From Microgenomates group bacterium Gr01-1014_16 (lineage in GTDB: Bacteria > Patescibacteriota > Microgenomatia > CAZETR01 > Amesbacteraceae): a stretch of 42,957 nucleotides of DNA. A program made the translations under genes and the position numbers. Positions 12,732-22,248 of this stretch are shown piece after piece. The notes below the pieces were generated by a model. That model saw only the letters and a program-made list of their open reading frames with translations. It did not search any database and was not told where the DNA came from. How positions within the stretch are numbered: position 1 is the first letter of the stretch; each line of letters opens with the position of its first letter. The stretch lies in NCBI GenBank assembly GCA_007376345.1, contig VMGA01000005.1:1-42957 (forward strand), read 5' to 3'.

Positions 12732-12804
12732 TTGCTGTCAGTTTATCGCAAAACTCGAACCTCGTTCTGTCGCAGCTCAGGCTCGCTCCGCTCGCCTTCG
12801 CTTT
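12732..12804 (+). repeat. Left end of the element (attL-like), 73-bp repeat copy A
   Basis: This is identical, in inverted orientation, to 20481-20553 over all 73 bases, and begins with TTGCTG. Read on the plus strand it encodes the recombinase tail SVYRKTRTSF... ending in TGA at 12803-12805. This identifies it as the arm normally downstream of the recombinase gene. Confidence 0.85.
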
Positions 12805-13426: not shown

Positions 13427-15193
13427 GTGAACAAAAGTGAATCCAACCAAGAATATTCAGAACACTTGAGACATTCCTGTGCCCATCTTTTGGCCGCAGC
13501 TGTGATTGAACTCTGGCCGGGAACGTTAAGAACGATCGGTCCTGCAATTGAGAACGGTTTTTATTATGATTTTGATTTTGGAGATGTAAAAATCTCTGAA
13601 GAAGATTTCAAAAAAATAGAAGAAAAAATGCATGAGTTGGTCAAGAGCTGGAATGGATTTGAGAAAAACGAAGTAACAGAAAAGGGGGCTAAAGATGCTT
13701 ACATTGGTAATCAATATAAAATAGAATTAATCGAAGAATTCTCCAAGGAAAAACAAAAATTAACTTTCTACAAATCCGGAGCTTATTCCGATCTTTGTCG
13801 AGGTGGGCATATAGAAAACCCTTCAAAAGAACTCAAACATTTTAAATTATTATCAGTCGCTGGTGCTTATTGGCGAGGCAATGAGAAGAACAAAATGTTA
13901 ACAAGAATTTATGGGACAATTTTTTCAACTAAAGGTGATCTCTATAAATATCTTAAAAATCTTGAACTCGCCAAACTTCACGATCACAGAAAATTAGGAA
14001 AAGAATTGGAGCTTTTTGCGATCAGCGATGAGATAGGCCAAGGATTAGTATTATGGCTTCCAAAAGGAAATTTTATTAAAGAGGAAATCGAAAACTGGGC
14101 AAAGACCACTGAAACAGAGTGGGGTTATCAAAGGGTGACAACCCCAAACATTACTAAGTCAGGTCTTTATTTTACTTCGGGCCACTTGCCATATTACAAA
14201 GCAGATATGTATCCACCAATGACTCTAGATGATGGTGAAGAATATTATTTAAAACCCATGAATTGTCCTCATCATCATATGATTTATAAAAACCGACCCA
14301 GAAGTTACAAAGAATTACCACTTCGTTTAGCGGAGTATGGGACTTGTTATCGCTACGAAGCTTCGGGTGAGCTTTTCGGTCTAATGCGAGTCCGTGGGTT
14401 TGTACAAAACGATTCGCATATTTACTGCACACAAGGACAAGCAGTTGAAGAATTTGTTCAGGTTATGAAACTTCACGAATTTTATTACAAAAGTCTTGGA
14501 ATCAAAGATTATTACTTAGAATTAGCACTAAGAGACCCTGAAAATAAAAAGAAGTATCATGGGAATAAAGAAATGTGGGTGCTAGCCGAAAAATTAATGA
14601 GAGAGGCCGTAAAAAGAGTTGATATACCAATGGTAGAAAAGGCCGGAAGTGCAGCTTTTTATGGACCAAAAATTGACTTTATTATTAAGTCGTCTACTGG
14701 CAGAGAATTTGGCATATCAACAAATCAAATTGATCTTTTTATGGGCGATAGATTTGGACTTAAGTATGTCGACAAAGATGGGTTTGAAAAGACCCCTGTT
14801 ATAATCCACCGTGCACCTCTGGGATCACATGAGCGGTTTATTGGCTTCCTTATTGAACACTTCGGGGGGAATTTCCCAACCTGGCTAACCCCAGTTCAAG
14901 TAAAAGTTTTACCCATTACGGATAAACATCTACATTATGCTAAAAGTGTATCAGAAAAGCTAAAAGAAGCCGGAATCAGAGTCGAACTTGATGACAGAAA
15001 CGAACGTCTCCAAGCCAAAATTCGCGACGCACAAAAAGAAAAGGTGTCATATATGTTAATCTTGGGTGCTAAAGAAGTTGAAACAAAAACTGTCACAGTA
15101 AGGGCGAGGAGTGGTGAAGCCTACGGACCCTACTCAATTGAAACTTTTATTAGTAACATCTGTCAGGAAATTGCACAAAAAACAATCAATTAA
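13427..15193 (+). CDS. thrS: Threonyl-tRNA synthetase, bacterial type with editing domain, no TGS domain
   Basis: A 588-residue ThrRS that charges tRNA-Thr. The usual N-terminal TGS domain is absent. The editing domain is intact: His16-xxx-His20 (HSCAH) and Cys124/His128 (CRGGH). The catalytic core has the three zinc ligands Cys280 (MNCPHH), His331 (NDSHIYC) and His461 (IIHRAPLG). Motif 2 is at Arg309 (CYRYE) and motif 3 at Arg470 (SHERF), followed by an anticodon-binding domain (VELDDRNERLQAKIRDAQ). The start is GTG 13427, about nine bases after a -10-like GATAAT and without a ribosome site, so the mRNA may be leaderless. It heads the element's operon. Whether another thrS exists outside the window is unknown; if it does, this copy may confer resistance. 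Confidence 0.93.
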   Translation: MNKSESNQEYSEHLRHSCAHLLAAAVIELWPGTLRTIGPAIENGFYYDFDFGDVKISEEDFKKIEEKMHELVKSWNGFEKNEVTEKGAKDAYIGNQYKIELIEEFSKEKQKLTFYKSGAYSDLCRGGHIENPSKELKHFKLLSVAGAYWRGNEKNKMLTRIYGTIFSTKGDLYKYLKNLELAKLHDHRKLGKELELFAISDEIGQGLVLWLPKGNFIKEEIENWAKTTETEWGYQRVTTPNITKSGLYFTSGHLPYYKADMYPPMTLDDGEEYYLKPMNCPHHHMIYKNRPRSYKELPLRLAEYGTCYRYEASGELFGLMRVRGFVQNDSHIYCTQGQAVEEFVQVMKLHEFYYKSLGIKDYYLELALRDPENKKKYHGNKEMWVLAEKLMREAVKRVDIPMVEKAGSAAFYGPKIDFIIKSSTGREFGISTNQIDLFMGDRFGLKYVDKDGFEKTPVIIHRAPLGSHERFIGFLIEHFGGNFPTWLTPVQVKVLPITDKHLHYAKSVSEKLKEAGIRVELDDRNERLQAKIRDAQKEKVSYMLILGAKEVETKTVTVRARSGEAYGPYSIETFISNICQEIAQKTIN

Positions 15194-15226: not shown

Positions 15227-15966
15227 ATGAATAAACTTAAAAAAATAATAAGAAATATTATAGACTCGATGGACTACAGAGCGGCTCCTTTTTCTGATAT
15301 GAAAATCATTGACGAAGAATTTGAGGAAATTTATGAAAAATGCAGAGAATATACTGTTTCGTCAAAAGTAAGCTTATATGCAACCTATAAAGCAATAAAA
15401 TATATTATAAAACAGGAATAACAGGTGACATTGTTGAATGTGGCATATGGAAAGGCGGAAGCATCATGGTAATGGCATATGCTTTAATTGAAGCGAATGA
15501 AAATTACAGAAAGATATGGCTATATGATACATTTAGTGGAATGACGAGACCGACTGAAGAAGATCGTTCAATTCCCGATGGAAAATCGGCCATTAATCGA
15601 TGGGGCAAAAATGGATTTGGAAATTGGGAGTCTCCGTCTTTAGAAGAGGTAAGGAGAAATATATTATCAACAGGTTATCCTAAAAAAAATTTTATTTTTA
15701 TCAAAGGAGATGTTCAAGAAACCATTCCAAAGAGTCGGCCTTCCAAAATCTCTTTATTAAGATTGGATACCGACTGGTATAGATCAACGAGGGATGAACT
15801 ACTGTACCTGTATCCAATACTCGTAAAACATGGGGTATTGATTATTGATGATTATGTCTACTGGATGGGAACAAAAAAAGCAGTTGATGAATATTTCTCA
15901 GAAAGGGCAATCTTGTTGAATAGGATCGATCGAACTAGTAGAATTGCGATTAAGATAGCAAATTAG
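15227..15966 (+). pseudogene. TylF/MycF-like O-methyltransferase broken by a one-base deletion
   Basis: The first part (ATG 15227 to stop at 15419-15421) ends YKAIKYIIKQE. Slipping back one base at the A4 run 15409-15412 continues the frame as ITGDIVECGIWKGGS, the SAM-binding motif I, and then runs to 15966 (MVMAYALIEANENYRKIWLYDTFSGM; LLRLDTDWYRSTRDELLYLYP; IDDYVYWMGTKKAVDEYF). Together these make a full-length TylF-family protein of about 247 residues, a family of Mg-dependent sugar or small-molecule O-methyltransferases. The break may be a sequencing error, a recent mutation or programmed -1 slippage. It lies 33 bases after thrS in the operon. Confidence 0.75.
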
Positions 15967-16013: not shown

Positions 16014-17345
16014 ATGATGTATAAAAAAATTGTAATATTGGATTCAGTCATTATTTATCCCGAACACAGGGATCGATTAAATAAGATTGCCGAAGAAGTT
16101 GTGGAATACAATACTTGCGAAACTGAACAGGAGGTTTTGGATCGAGTTAGGGGCGCTGATTGTATTGTAAGCTGCTGGATAAATATTCCCAATAAAGTAA
16201 TTGATGAAAACCCTCAATTAAAAACAATTGCTTTTTGGACCCATGCGTTTGAACATCGAATCAATAGTGACTACGCTCTCAAACACCATATATATGTTCC
16301 TAGTATACCTGATTATGGGACAGATTCGGTTGCCGAATTAGTATTTATCGGTTTATTACAACTAAACAAAAAATTGTCAGATAATAGCCAATCGACAAAC
16401 AATACTAGGACTTTAGAAGAAGAAATAATGACAAATGTAAGTGATAATGTGAGAAAGTTTAACAAGAACTGGCAAGCCAACTTAACGGGATCGTGGGTTC
16501 ATGAATATATTAAATCTGGACATCTAAAAATTACTAGCCCAGATGAATTTCTTGAGGAAACATTAAAAGGATTGACAATTGGCCTGTTGGTGAATAACGA
16601 TTTAAGAGAAAATTTGCTCAAAATTGCTTCTAAAGGATTCCAGATGAATCCGATCTACAGTCTAGGCGATTTACCCCATTCATTGGATATTGCTTATAGA
16701 CCCATTGACAATCTTTTGAGGGAGAGCCACATTATCATTTATGATTCACAAACTATTAGTGAGGATTTGAAAGATAAAATCAATCAAGGTAAATACATAT
16801 CGACCGTTGATGTAGCCAATGTTAAAATAGCTGGGCAATCAATTTTTAAAAAAAGGCTCGGAATTATTGGATTGGGAAGAATTGGAAGTAGGGTGGCTCA
16901 AATCGCCAGTGAAGGATTTGATATGAGGGTGGCATATTATTCTCGAAAAAGAAATTTTGATTTGGAAAAAAGGTATAATCTGGAGTTCAAACCTTTGGAT
17001 GATTTATTAAGTGATTCAGATATTGTAACTTTTCATTTACCCCACGTTGGGGCTGAAGGTTTTGTTACAAGTAAAATGATCGATATGATTCCAAAAGGTA
17101 CAGTCGTAGTAAATGTTAGTGTCGGTAGTATTTTTGAAGATCAAGACTATCTATTAAATCGATTTCAAGAAGATGACCTGAGAGGATATTTAGATGTTTA
17201 CAAAACTCTCCCGCCAAGAATGAAATTGAGAGATCGTAAAGATTATTTAGTTGCAACATATCGATTGGGTTGGAGAACTAAATCTACAATCGGTCTAAAA
17301 ACTCATAAATTAATAACCCGATTAGAGGAGGGTTTAAATAAATAA
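16014..17345 (+). CDS. D-2-hydroxyacid-dehydrogenase-like protein with two Rossmann domains and no catalytic triad
   Basis: A 443-residue protein, about 110 longer than normal D-2-hydroxyacid dehydrogenases. Residues 1-120 match the substrate domain (ADCIVSCWINIP; DYGTDSVAELVFIGLL). Residues about 279-372 are the NAD domain with Gly286-x-Gly288-xx-Gly291 (GLGRIGSRVA). A second, degenerate copy of this domain lies before it at about 184-268: KIASKGFQM against QIASEGFDM, and RPIDNLLRESHI against KPLDDLLSDSDI. The catalytic Arg, Glu and His of the family are all replaced (VNVSVGSIFED; LDVYKTLPP; ATYRLGWRT). It probably binds NAD(P) but may not be a standard dehydrogenase. Confidence 0.7.
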   Translation: MMYKKIVILDSVIIYPEHRDRLNKIAEEVVEYNTCETEQEVLDRVRGADCIVSCWINIPNKVIDENPQLKTIAFWTHAFEHRINSDYALKHHIYVPSIPDYGTDSVAELVFIGLLQLNKKLSDNSQSTNNTRTLEEEIMTNVSDNVRKFNKNWQANLTGSWVHEYIKSGHLKITSPDEFLEETLKGLTIGLLVNNDLRENLLKIASKGFQMNPIYSLGDLPHSLDIAYRPIDNLLRESHIIIYDSQTISEDLKDKINQGKYISTVDVANVKIAGQSIFKKRLGIIGLGRIGSRVAQIASEGFDMRVAYYSRKRNFDLEKRYNLEFKPLDDLLSDSDIVTFHLPHVGAEGFVTSKMIDMIPKGTVVVNVSVGSIFEDQDYLLNRFQEDDLRGYLDVYKTLPPRMKLRDRKDYLVATYRLGWRTKSTIGLKTHKLITRLEEGLNK

Positions 17346-18064
17346 TGATAATTGAAAATGAGATAAACATTACCAATAATTCGGAAGAGTTTATACATAC
17401 AGCTCTTAGAAAGCCGCGAAGTATTATAGTATTACGCGGATCAATATCACCATCCGACAAAGAAATTTATACCTATTTAGACCAATTGGGAAGCCAGCAC
17501 CCTAGCCTTTATGGCAAGATCACCATTATTAAAAATGATCCAAGTATTAAAAATAGCACAGCCATGTCGCTAAATGCCCTTGTTCCTCACACGGATGGAG
17601 CCTTCATTGAAAATCCCCCATCGAGAACAATTCTAAGTTTTATAAATAGCGATCCAAAGGGAGGGGGGGCTAGTATATTTATTCCTCTGGGAAAAATCCT
17701 AGCAGACTTACCAAATTGGGCTATGGATGCCCTGACCAATGATTACTATCTGTTTCCACGAACTTATGATGGCAACCTTTCCGATTCATATACCGGCCCT
17801 GTACTAAACAAAGATCCGCAAGGTAATTTTAATATTCGTTGGCGCGCAGATAAATTTTATAGACCAAAGGTTGTGAAGAACAATGACACTAGAGGCGCAG
17901 AAGCGATTGATTGGCTATATACTTATATTGAAAAATGCAAACCCATTACATATGATGCCAAGTCTGGTGAAACCTTGTTAGTTCCAAATTCTGCAATGCT
18001 TCATGGCCGTACACCCTTATCTCCCAATTCCACGCGCGAAGTTTTACGTGTATGGATAGTATGA
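17345..18064 (+). CDS. TauD/clavaminate-synthase-like Fe(II)/2-oxoglutarate oxygenase
   Basis: A 239-residue protein of the TauD/TfdA-like fold. The iron ligands are visible as His82-x-Asp84 (PHTDGAF) and His220 (MLHGRTPL), and the 2-oxoglutarate-binding Arg is probably 231 or 235 (REVLRVWIV). The stretch PPSRTILSFINSDPKGGGASIF fits the family block after HxD. Such enzymes usually hydroxylate or desaturate amino acids or small metabolites. The start overlaps the stop of the preceding gene (TAATGA), so translation is coupled. It is slightly short for the family; substrate unknown. Confidence 0.75.
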   Translation: MIIENEINITNNSEEFIHTALRKPRSIIVLRGSISPSDKEIYTYLDQLGSQHPSLYGKITIIKNDPSIKNSTAMSLNALVPHTDGAFIENPPSRTILSFINSDPKGGGASIFIPLGKILADLPNWAMDALTNDYYLFPRTYDGNLSDSYTGPVLNKDPQGNFNIRWRADKFYRPKVVKNNDTRGAEAIDWLYTYIEKCKPITYDAKSGETLLVPNSAMLHGRTPLSPNSTREVLRVWIV

Positions 18065-18076
18065 TTCCACTTAGAT

Positions 18077-19540
18077 ATGAGTATATCCACACATCTAATC
18101 CAAAAAAATAATCCAAATTTAGATTTTTACATATTTGATGATTCAAATAATATCCCTATTAGAAAGTACGAATTTAAAAACGATCAGCAAAATTTACAGA
18201 CATGCTTAGTTGATGAGTTTTATCCCGAAAAAAGTTTACGTAAAATAAAAAATAATAAATTTAATCAATTTATTGAAGCGATGGGTTTTCAATGGGATAC
18301 ACTAACTGAACCTGGGCATATGCGATTGACGCCATACGCAAATGCGATAATGGAAGCAATTGAAAAATATAGTTGGTTACAAGTTACAAAAAATGCCAAA
18401 GAAGTTAATGTTCCCACAAGTAAAATAGGTGGTGGAGAATTATATGATCCCAATAGCTTAGATATTAAAAACGTCTTAAGGGATTTGTTTTCAGGAAACA
18501 CTGCTTATGGTTCAAACTATTACAATGTAAAAATTAACAATACGGTGGAATTTTTAAGATATAGCGCTTGTACACAAAAACTATCATTTGTTAAGACACT
18601 TAGTCTAGATTACAAAAATTTGCCATTCGGTTTATTTGAAATATCTAAAAGCTACAGATTTGAAGAAGAAAAAGAATTACAATTGTGCAATAGAGTTAGA
18701 AGTTTTCACCTACCGGAACTTCATATTATCACAGACAAAGTCTCATCTTCACTAAAGATAGGTTTAAAAATCCATCAAAGAATGGTTGCACAAATAAATA
18801 GTTTGGGAATGGATTTCGAAATACTGTGTAATGTCACCGATAGCTTCTTCAAGAAAAATCAAGCTTTTTTAAGCAGCTTTGCTAGTTTATTGGAAAAACC
18901 ATTTTTACTAACTGTTACTAAAGACAATGCTTCTGGAAAAGACGGTGTTGAGCTTGATGTGGAATATAAGGTGTTTGATTGCAATGGAACACCAATAGAA
19001 ATTTCTACATTTCAAGTAGACGATGGCTCATCTCCTTCTGCATTTGGAATAAGTTATAAATCGGATGAGAACACCGAAAAACTAGTTTCAACAATGCATA
19101 TTGTTTTCAATGCTTCTGTCGAACGTTTTGCATACGTTCTTTTAAATAATGCGTTTATAAATAAATCAAAGTTGCCATTTTGGGCATCTCCAATACAAAT
19201 AAGGGTTATCCCATTTGATAAAAATTCTTTGCATGAGGCAACGAAACTGACTGAAGAAATGGACTCAATGAACATTAGGTCTGAATTGGACGATAGAGAT
19301 ATAAGCTATACGACTAAAAATGCCGATGAAGAATTAGCCTGGATACCGTACGCAATAACGGTTAAAATAAATAACAATCAATTGCAATTTGTTATGATAT
19401 ATTGCAGCAAAGGTGAGATTATTGAGAAAATTATAAAAAAGGATGATTTAATGAGAGAGCTGAGAACAAAACTTAATGGAGAAATTAATATACCAAGATA
19501 TTTTCCTATTAATTTATCTAGCAAGATAGAATTTAAATAA
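18077..19540 (+). CDS. Archaeal-type threonyl-tRNA synthetase paralog without editing domain
   Basis: A 487-residue class II synthetase whose core resembles archaeal rather than bacterial ThrRS: LRYSACTQKLSFVKTL, DYKNLPFGLFEISKSYRFE, RVRSFHLPELHII, STFQVDDG and MHIVFNASVERFA. The three zinc/threonine ligands are kept (Cys165, His216, His341), as are motif 2 Arg194 and motif 3 Arg350. Both known editing domains are missing; residues 1-75 are unrecognised. The C-terminal anticodon-binding fold is present (SELDDRDISYTTKNADEELAWIPYAITV), but the usual basic KKIREAE-type helix is replaced by a neutral/acidic one. It may still activate threonine, while tRNA recognition is doubtful. It lies 12 bases after the oxygenase and overlaps the SDR gene. 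Confidence 0.75.
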   Translation: MSISTHLIQKNNPNLDFYIFDDSNNIPIRKYEFKNDQQNLQTCLVDEFYPEKSLRKIKNNKFNQFIEAMGFQWDTLTEPGHMRLTPYANAIMEAIEKYSWLQVTKNAKEVNVPTSKIGGGELYDPNSLDIKNVLRDLFSGNTAYGSNYYNVKINNTVEFLRYSACTQKLSFVKTLSLDYKNLPFGLFEISKSYRFEEEKELQLCNRVRSFHLPELHIITDKVSSSLKIGLKIHQRMVAQINSLGMDFEILCNVTDSFFKKNQAFLSSFASLLEKPFLLTVTKDNASGKDGVELDVEYKVFDCNGTPIEISTFQVDDGSSPSAFGISYKSDENTEKLVSTMHIVFNASVERFAYVLLNNAFINKSKLPFWASPIQIRVIPFDKNSLHEATKLTEEMDSMNIRSELDDRDISYTTKNADEELAWIPYAITVKINNNQLQFVMIYCSKGEIIEKIIKKDDLMRELRTKLNGEINIPRYFPINLSSKIEFK

Positions 19541-20277
19541 TGAAACTTGAAAATAAAGTAGCAATTGTGACAGGGTCTTCTCGTGGTATTGGGAGAGCTA
19601 CGGCTATCCTTTTTGCAAAAGAGGGGGCCAAGGTTGTAATCAACGGTGTGCGTCAAACCGAAGTGGGAGAAACAGTTGTTAGGGATATTGGCAATGATAG
19701 GGCTGTTTATATTCGTGCGGATGTATCCAAAGAAGATGAGGTCAAGCGTTTGGTATCAGAAACTGTAAAAAAATTTGGTAAGATCGATATCCTTATTAAT
19801 AATGCTGGAGTAATTATCGACAGACAGGGCTGGAAATCAGATATCGACAGTTGGCAAAGCACTATTGATTCCAATTTAACTAGCGCTTGGTTAATGACTA
19901 AAGAAGTTTCGTCAATAATGTTTAAAAGCGGTGGGGGATCAATTGTCAACATCAGTTCAATTTATGGTTTCTTGGGCGCAGCCTCTGTAATATCGTATTC
20001 CTCCGCCAAAGGTGGACTTATTACTATGACAAAAGCACTTGCAAAAGAACTGGCACCCAGCATTCGCGTAAATGCAATTGCTCCTGGAAATGTTATGACT
20101 GATATGACAATGGAGGCAGGTCAAAAAGTGATAGATTATTTTAATACCCAAGTGCCACTTAAACGAAGCGCAGAGCCAGACGAGATAGCGAAAGCGGTAT
20201 TGTTTTTGGCTTCTGAAGATGCGAGCTATATTACTGGAGAAATTTTGGTAATAGATGGCGGATATAGCCTTAGGTGA
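19540..20277 (+). CDS. Short-chain dehydrogenase/reductase, FabG-like
   Basis: A 245-residue classical SDR. The cofactor motif is TGSSRGIG (11-18), followed by NNAG (87-90). The catalytic Ser140-Tyr153-Lys157 lie in NISSIYG and YSSAKGG, and the C-terminal SEDASYITGEILVIDGGY is typical. Ser13-Arg15 after the first glycine favours NADPH. In the operon it probably reduces a keto intermediate or oxidises an alcohol; use in fatty acid synthesis is unlikely, since no other fab gene is nearby. The start overlaps the ThrRS-like stop (TAATGA). Confidence 0.88.
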   Translation: MKLENKVAIVTGSSRGIGRATAILFAKEGAKVVINGVRQTEVGETVVRDIGNDRAVYIRADVSKEDEVKRLVSETVKKFGKIDILINNAGVIIDRQGWKSDIDSWQSTIDSNLTSAWLMTKEVSSIMFKSGGGSIVNISSIYGFLGAASVISYSSAKGGLITMTKALAKELAPSIRVNAIAPGNVMTDMTMEAGQKVIDYFNTQVPLKRSAEPDEIAKAVLFLASEDASYITGEILVIDGGYSLR

Positions 20278-20480: not shown

Positions 20481-20643
20481 AAAGCGAAGGCGAGCGGAGC
20501 GAGCCTGAGCTGCGACAGAACGAGGTTCGAGTTTTGCGATAAACTGACAGCAAGGTTCGAGTGGAGGGGCGCGAAAGCGCACCGACACCAAACTCAGAAA
20601 GCGGTTTCCAGCCTTCTTTTACGTACTCGCAGGTGAGTTGACG
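20481..20643 (-). repeat. Inverted, intact attachment-site-like block (copies B and C)
   Basis: Bases 20481-20553 are an exact inverted copy of 12732-12804 (73 bp), and 20548-20643 an exact inverted copy of 22085-22180 (96 bp). The two share only CAGCAA at 20548-20553. On the minus strand the block reads as an uninterrupted recombinase C-terminus: RQLTCEYVKEGWKPLSEF, then TLLSVYRKTRTSF, ending SPSL with TAA at 20478-20480. It is thus an unrecombined junction of the two element ends. Upstream of the 96-bp identity the sequence is only loosely similar to the present recombinase gene, so it may derive from a related element. Confidence 0.8.
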
Positions 20644-20686: not shown

Positions 20687-22189
20687 ATGAAATATATAGG
20701 CTACTGCAGAAAATCAACAGATGAACCAGACAGACAAATACTTTCCATTGAGGCGCAGGTTGCCGAGTTAAAAGAATTCGCCGCAAAAGAAAAATTAGAG
20801 ATTGTAGATTTTATTTTAGAGAGCAAAACCGCTAAAGAACCTGGCCGACAAAAGTTTGCCGAAGTAATTAGATTATTAGAATCAGGTGTTGCAGATGGAA
20901 TTCTCTCCTGGCATCCCGACAGACTTGCAAGAAATTCTATTGATGGAGGCAGGATTATTTATTTACTTGATACAGGCAAACTTTTAGATCTCAAATTTCC
21001 CTCTTTTTGGTTTGATAATACTCCCCAGGGAAAATTCATGTTAAATATGGCATTTGGCCAGAGCAAATATTATATTGATAGTCTTTCCGTAAATGTTAAA
21101 CGTGGTAATCGTCAAAAACTTCGCCGTGGCGAGTGGCCAAATAAAGCTCCGTTTGGTTATCTGAATGATATGAGTACTAAAACTATTCAGGTGGATAAAA
21201 AGAGGGCAAAATTTGTTCGACAGGCTTTTGAGATGTACGCAACAGGCGGTTTTATGCAAATTGATATCAGGGAATTCTTTACTAAAAATAAAATCTTCAA
21301 TAAAACCGGACATACAGTTCATGTCAATAAAATTAAACATATGCTTTCAGACCCTTTTTATTACGGCGTTATGAATTTTTGCGGCGAATTATATGAAGGA
21401 AGTCATAAACCATTAATTACCAAGAAACTTTTTGACAAAGTCCAGGAAGTAGTTAGAAGAAAAAGTAAAACTCACTATAGCCATACCCCCGAATTTGATT
21501 TTCTTGGACTTGTTAAATGCGGAGAGTGCGGCGGTTCAATCACGGCAGAAAAACACGTCAGATTTTATCCAACAAAAAACAGAACCGCCGTCTTTATTTA
21601 CTACCGCTGTTCCAAAAAGTTTGGCCCTTGTTCCCAAAGATATACTACAGGCCTCGAAATGGAAGAAAAAATGAGAGTGGCGATTAAAAATGCTTCCATT
21701 TCAAATTATGTTGCCAAAAAGTTTCTTGAATGGGCAGAAACGGATTCCCAAAAAGAAAATCTGGAATCATCAGATAAAGTCGGTATTTTAACTCGGCAAC
21801 TAAAAGAGGCAGAAGAAAAACTGGACAGGCTACTGGAAGCCTACTTGGACAAAGTAATTGAGGAAACTGAATACAAGGCAAAGAAAAATGAATTATTAGA
21901 AAACAAACTATCGCTTCAGGCAGAGATCAAGGAAATAACAGAAAAGGGCAATGAATGGCTCGAACCTTTTTCTGAATTCGTAAAAACGGCTGAAACAGGG
22001 GCAAAAACGGCGCGCGCAAAAAATAATTTGCATGAACTTTCAGTTCAAGCAAGAACTGTCGGCTCGAACTTCTTTTTGAAGGATCGTCAACTCACCTGCG
22101 AGTACGTAAAAGAAGGCTGGAAACCGCTTTCTGAGTTTGGTGTCGGTGCGCTTTCGCGCCCCTCCACTCGAACCTTGCTGGGGGACTAG
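20687..22189 (+). CDS. Large serine recombinase (integrase of the element)
   Basis: A 500-residue large serine recombinase that would integrate and excise the element. The N-terminal resolvase domain has the nucleophile Ser10 (YCRKSTDEP) and HPDRLARNSIDGGRI. The recombinase domain follows (KAPFGYLND near 155). Next come a zinc ribbon (CGECGGS...YYRCSKKFGPC), a Glu/Lys-rich coiled coil (about 365-430) and a tail. The last 35 residues are encoded in the right end repeat, and the final GD and stop come from the tRNA-Gln gene, which it overlaps by 12 bases. Integration therefore exchanged the C-terminus. Upstream lies the inverted attachment-site copy. Confidence 0.92.
   Translation: MKYIGYCRKSTDEPDRQILSIEAQVAELKEFAAKEKLEIVDFILESKTAKEPGRQKFAEVIRLLESGVADGILSWHPDRLARNSIDGGRIIYLLDTGKLLDLKFPSFWFDNTPQGKFMLNMAFGQSKYYIDSLSVNVKRGNRQKLRRGEWPNKAPFGYLNDMSTKTIQVDKKRAKFVRQAFEMYATGGFMQIDIREFFTKNKIFNKTGHTVHVNKIKHMLSDPFYYGVMNFCGELYEGSHKPLITKKLFDKVQEVVRRKSKTHYSHTPEFDFLGLVKCGECGGSITAEKHVRFYPTKNRTAVFIYYRCSKKFGPCSQRYTTGLEMEEKMRVAIKNASISNYVAKKFLEWAETDSQKENLESSDKVGILTRQLKEAEEKLDRLLEAYLDKVIEETEYKAKKNELLENKLSLQAEIKEITEKGNEWLEPFSEFVKTAETGAKTARAKNNLHELSVQARTVGSNFFLKDRQLTCEYVKEGWKPLSEFGVGALSRPSTRTLLGD
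22085..22180 (+). repeat. Right end of the element (attR-like), 96-bp repeat copy D
   Basis: Identical to the inverted block 20548-20643. It encodes the recombinase C-terminus from RQLTCEY to TLL and ends with TTGCTG, whose last two bases enter the tRNA-Gln acceptor end. From 22181 on, the sequence is tRNA rather than the 73-bp arm found at the other junctions. Confidence 0.85.
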
Positions 22190-22248
22190 GATTCGAACCT
22201 AGATTGACAGATTCAGAGTCTGTATGCCTACCATTAGCAGATCCCCCA
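22178..22248 (-). tRNA. tRNA-Gln (anticodon CUG)
   Basis: Read on the minus strand, all arms fold. The acceptor TGGGGGA/TCCCCCA has the U1-A72 pair typical of tRNA-Gln. The D arm is TGCT/GGCA with loop AATGGTA. The anticodon stem is ACAGA/TCTGT with loop CTCTGAA (anticodon CUG), and the T arm is CTAGG-TTCGAAT-CCTAG. The discriminator is G, as in tRNA-Gln. CCA is not encoded (GCAA follows). The 3' end is the integration site of the serine-recombinase element, which leaves the tRNA complete. Confidence 0.92.

Follow-up and report, generated by a model that had tools for sequence, protein, structure and literature searches.

An editing-domain-less ThrRS-derived protein in a tRNA-adjacent gene island of a Microgenomates bacterium

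Gene content and borders of the island

We analyzed a stretch of 42,957 nts (the window; contig VMGA01000005.1, positions 1 to 42,957, forward strand) from the assembly GCA_007376345.1 of Microgenomates group bacterium Gr01-1014_16, the genome of which measures 1.03 Mb and is 95% complete. The central gene encodes a ThrRS-derived protein, designated here as P0001. The following genes and features were identified at this locus:

12732..12804 (-), left copy of a 73-bp inverted repeat, exact, ending in the core CAGCAA
13427..15193 (+), second ThrRS, bacterial-type, 588 aa, with an editing domain but no TGS domain
15227..15966 (+), TylF-type O-methyltransferase read in two frames, apparently frameshifted at about 15400-15420
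16014..17345 (+), 2-hydroxyacid-dehydrogenase-like NAD-binding protein with a ~130-aa insertion, 73% identical to a protein of bacterium BMS3Abin15
17345..18064 (+), TauD/CsiD-type Fe(II)/2-oxoglutarate dioxygenase, weak match to CsiD/glutarate-hydroxylase-like enzymes
18077..19540 (+), P0001, ThrRS-derived, 487 aa, with an archaeal-type linker (residues 1-75), a class II core and an anticodon-binding-like domain
19540..20277 (+), short-chain dehydrogenase/reductase (SDR), 74% identical to the BMS3Abin15 SDR
20481..20553 (+), right copy of the 73-bp inverted repeat, exact, ending in the core CAGCAA
20548..20659 (+), one copy of a second inverted repeat, 94% identical to 22069-22180 (96 bp exact), starting in the core CAGCAA
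20687..22189 (+), large serine recombinase
22069..22180 (-), partner copy of the second inverted repeat, adjoining the 3' end of tRNA-Gln
22177..22248 (-), tRNA-Gln(CTG), with the recombination core CAGCAA at its 3' end

The 73-bp inverted repeat encloses the genes from the bacterial-type ThrRS to the SDR, and the second inverted repeat encloses the serine recombinase. Three recombination-site-like copies meet at the 6-bp core, which is also found at the 3' end of tRNA-Gln, and neither inverted repeat has a copy elsewhere in the host genome. Such a layout is left behind by site-specific recombination at a tRNA gene. Judging from the inverted arrangement of the repeats, the gene cluster and the recombinase may be segments capable of inversion. 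The GC content is 31% for P0001, 31-41% for the island genes and 43-49% for the flanking genes.

The ORF of P0001 is free of internal stops and is bounded exactly by positions 18077 and 19540 on the plus strand. It starts 12 nts past the end of the oxygenase gene, and its stop overlaps the start of the SDR gene by one base. The bacterial-type ThrRS gene is located 2.9 kb upstream on the same strand and within the same inverted-repeat-bounded segment. An earlier note on this DNA had placed the two in one operon; the proximity holds, and the single operon is putative. Between this ThrRS and the dehydrogenase-like gene lies the frameshifted methyltransferase, whose frameshift is either genuine or due to faulty assembly.

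Among the neighboring enzymes, the dehydrogenase-like protein retains the GLGRIG NAD-binding loop and carries its ~130 extra residues between two matched parts. Arg, Glu and His have catalytic roles in glyoxylate reductase, and Val, Lys and Arg are aligned to them in this protein. On visual inspection, the inserted part looks like a degenerate second Rossmann unit. No relative of the protein was detected at E<=1e-30 in 379 other sampled genomes of the phylum. No carrier protein, amide ligase, exporter or recognizable scaffold-building gene was seen in the window island, so that the term biosynthetic, as used below, rests on four enzymes. Searches of the locus with PADLOC gave no match to known defence systems, and Rfam detected no T-box or other RNA element near the island genes.

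P0001 itself contains tRNA-synt_2b and HGTP_anticodon as its sole Pfam domains, the latter matched at residues 374-429, and neither tRNA_SAD (the bacterial editing domain) nor any other editing model was found by Pfam at E<=1. Among NCBIfam profiles, it scores 284.4 bits against archaeal ThrRS (NF003068, PRK03991) versus 139 bits against the general thrS model TIGR00418. NF003068 is an equivalog with a curated cut-off of 484 bits, which is missed by both P0001 and its ortholog P0002 (295.3 bits). Residues 9-486 of P0001 align to profile positions 148-612. Because the match begins at position 148, the first ~70-75 residues are equivalent to the segment located after the editing domain of archaeal ThrRS, which answers the question raised earlier about the nature of the first 75 residues and, together with the Pfam result, upholds the proposed absence of an editing domain. 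AlphaFold models of P0001 and of the NAD-binding protein reached pLDDT values of 34.5 and 37.1, too low to use, and homologs of the two are few.

Relatives of P0001 and the second island

A scan for close relatives across 84,980 species genomes revealed a sole ortholog, P0002, which is 42% identical over the full length and is encoded in bacterium BMS3Abin15 (locus L004). No further ortholog was found in samples of 380 genomes from the phylum, 374 from the class, 14 from the order of the window and 131 from the order of BMS3Abin15, these samples overlapping in part; the family thus has two members so far. Plasmid, phage and viral collections yielded only ordinary ThrRSs or nothing. Matches on Halovenus and Tritonibacter plasmids were rejected as they are bacterial-type ThrRSs. 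Contamination or an isolated oddity can also be set aside, since the same gene set is present in the second genome.

In BMS3Abin15, the gene order is SDR, P0003, P0002, tRNA-Cys, NAD-binding protein and a radical SAM/SPASM enzyme. P0003 is an archaeal-type ThrRS without an editing domain that scores 598 bits against NF003068, above the cut-off. The two islands have in common the SDR (74% identity), the NAD-binding protein (73%), P0001/P0002 (42%) and a second ThrRS, which is bacterial-type in the window and archaeal-type and editing-less in BMS3Abin15. From these identities, the ThrRS-like gene appears to have evolved fastest. The accessory genes differ, with an oxygenase and a methyltransferase in the window and a radical SAM enzyme and tRNA-Cys in BMS3Abin15. 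The L004 genes are flanked by the 3' end of a tRNA-Pro on one side and by direct repeats (55 and 201 bp) on the other, a tRNA-adjacent insertion as in the window.

We built a tree of P0001-P0004 and 19 bacterial-type ThrRSs. P0001 and P0002 join P0003 and P0004 with supports of 100/99 (rooted) and 100/100 (unrooted), and the grouping of P0001 with P0003/P0004 retains a support of 95 when P0002 is removed. Constraining P0001 and P0002 to the bacterial side gave a p-AU of 0.039. Since the stem branch is long, for which the program issues a warning, and the archaeal-type side of the tree consists of P0001-P0004, the archaeal-type label depends primarily on the curated profile, with the tree as secondary evidence. 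Both agree with the archaeal-ThrRS-like core recognized in the earlier note, and a placement inside bacterial ThrRS was not seen. P0004 comes from genome G215 (contig C12, locus L035, 242-3669), where this archaeal-type, editing-less protein (444 bits) adjoins a TGS-less bacterial ThrRS; these two are the only ThrRS matches in that genome at E<=1e-45, and the rest of the island gene set was not found beside P0004. Both P0003 and P0004 look like near-normal ThrRS cores.

Besides P0001, the host genome has two ThrRS genes, the island gene at 13427-15193 and another on contig C56. Their products are 49% identical, and the island ThrRS is closer (55% identity) to a ThrRS encoded in a different genome of the class. 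Loss of the editing domain is not rare in the phylum, as several sampled bacterial-type ThrRSs of 411-431 aa also do without it (loci L013, L018 and L020). It had been suggested that the neighboring ThrRS edits in trans for P0001. This gains no support and was rejected as a general explanation, because the partner ThrRS of the BMS3Abin15 island, P0003, is editing-less too.

A ThrRS beside P0001 or P0002 in each of the two islands might instead indicate that P0001 is a non-catalytic or regulatory partner, forming a heterodimer with the adjacent ThrRS and tuning it in the manner of HisZ with HisG, which are known to form a heterodimer, or of Anabaena T2 with T1. ThrRS enzymes form homodimers, and duplicated copies have been documented to oligomerise in trans (PMC4787780). 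However, the ATP and zinc catalytic positions are conserved (see below), which is unexpected for a pure scaffold, and no co-evolving interface is evident given that the partner differs in type between the islands. We regard such a partnership as unlikely.

The tRNA-Cys of the BMS3Abin15 island is located as follows:

L004 9444-9516, tRNA-Cys(GCA), about 7 nts downstream of P0002, ahead of the next island gene

BMS3Abin15 has a second tRNA-Cys on contig C69, to which the island copy is only ~53% identical (39/74 columns). By our own reading, the island tRNA has A where the C69 tRNA-Cys has G18 of the D-loop. U73 and the GCA anticodon, the known CysRS identity elements, are kept. No counterpart of this tRNA was found in the window island. 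One candidate elsewhere in the host genome (C41:4503-4575; locus L095) was rejected because it lies among housekeeping genes; it is a weak tRNA-like element of 34.8 bits with an enlarged anticodon loop and is not called by ARAGORN. The island tRNA-Cys of BMS3Abin15 may be a pathway tool or a passenger. If it is a tool, a P0001-type enzyme could charge a dedicated tRNA for biosynthesis or altered decoding. The position of this tRNA directly after P0002, its divergence from the normal copy and the substitution of G18 point in this direction, and natural pairs such as ProRSx/tRNA-ProA and CysRS*/SelC* exist (PMC9437257). Against it stand the window island, which has no such tRNA, and the changed anticodon-domain positions of P0001 and P0002. 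The retained U73 and GCA argue likewise against a dedicated pair, which seems rather improbable. In a fuller version, a mobile tRNA-targeting island would have a non-canonical synthetase system of its own, in which the ThrRS-derived enzyme activates an amino acid that the island produces or modifies and attaches it to a dedicated tRNA, namely the divergent tRNA-Cys of BMS3Abin15, for biosynthesis or decoding; this version appears decidedly improbable.

Active-site, tRNA-end and anticodon positions

To compare individual residues, P0001 and P0002 were aligned with 21 other ThrRSs, using E. coli ThrRS numbering. Threonine-contact roles are those described for the E. coli enzyme (PMC9880928), and the roles of further residues were taken from PMC3907816. 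All zinc ligands are present in P0001 (C165, H216 and H341, equivalent to E. coli C334, H385 and H511), as are R194, E196 and R206 of motif 2 (R363, E365 and R375) and R350 of motif 3 (R520). The retention of zinc ligands and class II arginines reported earlier is therefore correct for P0001 but does not hold across the group, as Asp occupies the H385 position in the ortholog P0002 and replaces the zinc Cys in P0004. Gln484 is retained in P0001, and Leu is found there in P0002.

Several changes are shared by P0001 and P0002. Asp383, which forms a hydrogen bond to the threonine hydroxyl (PMC9880928), is Glu in both proteins and Asp in 21 of the 21 other ThrRSs. Tyr462, which contacts the amino group of threonine (PMC9880928), is Asp in both, and two glycines of the motif-2 loop are replaced by Lys and Leu. 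A 12-residue insertion is located directly before the loop of His309 and Tyr313, which serves the tRNA end (PMC9880928, PMC3907816). In the anticodon domain, Glu606, Arg613 and Arg639 (as seen in the Neisseria row and conserved in most others) are altered in both proteins. The KIR stretch of this domain reads KNA in P0001 and KKK in P0002. The loss of basic residues from the anticodon helix that had been noted earlier is thus real in P0001 and not in P0002, and the argument built on it is weak as stated because the net charge of the anticodon domain is not unusual. Taken from the alignment, the pattern in P0001 is one of apparently retained adenylate chemistry combined with a changed amino-acid pocket and tRNA interface.

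These positions bear on two simpler accounts of the gene. P0001 might simply be a ThrRS for self-resistance or back-up and continue to charge tRNA-Thr, a role for which second ThrRS copies that protect producers, such as ObaO, offer a model (PMC11252418), and its tree neighbors P0003 and P0004 have near-normal ThrRS cores. However, P0001 and P0002 score far below the 484-bit cut-off (284 and 295 bits) and no longer have residues that are conserved in functional ThrRSs, and the other ThrRS of the same island would suit the role better; we consider this account quite unlikely. Alternatively, the P0001 gene could be in decay on its mobile island and no longer have a function, as its rapid divergence relative to its neighbors (42% versus 73-74% identity) and the frameshifted methyltransferase nearby might suggest. 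Its ORF is nevertheless intact and tightly packed with the adjacent genes, the same motif changes occur in both orthologs and the catalytic residues are kept, and decay is in our view very unlikely.

A possible role and its precedents

The reading that we tentatively prefer, and hold at somewhat below an even chance, is that P0001 works in a small biosynthetic pathway, either as an amino-acid ligase or as an aminoacyl-transferase, and that the companion ThrRS is its supplier or a copy for self-resistance. P0001 would be a neofunctionalised archaeal-type ThrRS core within a small mobile biosynthetic pathway that still binds ATP and zinc and activates a threonine-like amino acid or, alternatively, accepts a threonine-like acyl group from Thr-tRNA made by the companion ThrRS. 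The acyl group would then be passed to an acceptor other than ordinary tRNA-Thr, most likely a small molecule that is built or trimmed by the oxygenase, NAD-binding protein and SDR of the island. The additional ThrRS of either island would provide Thr-tRNA or serve as a copy that resists an inhibitor, similar to the relation of AcmD to AcmF. We infer the substrate, the acceptor, the role of the second ThrRS and the existence of any product. A role outside normal tRNA charging, which was proposed in the earlier note, is supported by the tRNA-end, threonine-pocket and anticodon changes common to P0001 and P0002, as well as by the conservation of the gene set on mobile DNA and the presence of two other ThrRS genes, one of which is outside the island. 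On sequence grounds, each rival of this preferred reading keeps some probability. If P0001 does ligate an amino acid to a small molecule, ThrRS would join the repurposed synthetases, and specialised metabolism would be indicated for bacteria with streamlined, small genomes. The tRNA-Cys of the BMS3Abin15 island offers a directly testable lead to tRNA-dependent chemistry.

P0001 is read as an aminoacyl ligase or transferase because AcmF and AcmD provide the best precedent. AcmF, from the ascamycin cluster, is a truncated AlaRS-like protein with an active-site D-to-E change, and AcmD is the second AlaRS of that cluster, which supplies Ala-tRNA and is more resistant, or less sensitive, to the product (PMC12945691). 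The likeness lies in a truncated synthetase paralog and a second canonical copy within one cluster and in the Asp-to-Glu change of the paralog. The Acm pair, however, is of AlaRS origin, and AcmF has lost ATP-binding residues, whereas P0001 keeps R194, E196, R206 and R350. Given that these residues are present, direct ATP-dependent ligation and transfer from Thr-tRNA are equally likely, and P0001, unlike AcmF, may still aminoacylate a tRNA.

The IleRS-like SbzA of the SB-203208 pathway and the CysRS-like MshC of mycothiol synthesis are further synthetase paralogs that attach an amino acid to a small molecule, as P0001 would do; these are class I enzymes, and SbzA retains its editing and tRNA domains. 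The amino acid:carrier protein ligases are repurposed class II cores that use ATP for a non-tRNA acceptor, but they have lost the tRNA-binding domain, whereas P0001 keeps the anticodon-domain fold and has no carrier protein nearby. Among the ThrRSs themselves, archaeal ThrRS (NF003068/PRK03991) is the best profile match and has the same order of core, linker and anticodon domain, and crenarchaeal ThrRS-1 likewise has no editing domain. P0001 differs from both in falling under the 484-bit cut-off, in its changed pocket, motif-2-loop and anticodon positions and in its location within a bacterial metabolic island. Anabaena T1 and T2 are duplicated bacterial ThrRSs, one of which is impaired in editing; yet both charge tRNA-Thr, both are encoded outside a metabolic island, and T2 has a degenerate editing domain.

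No published description of a P0001-like system was found in the open-access literature, and a 2022 review tabulating duplicated and repurposed synthetases contains no ThrRS-derived biosynthetic enzyme (PMC9437257). The recruitment of synthetase paralogs to other chemistry is already known in kind; new here are the ThrRS origin, the very small family, the association, in bacteria with small genomes, with mobile DNA that targets tRNA genes, and the presence of a tRNA-Cys within one of the islands.
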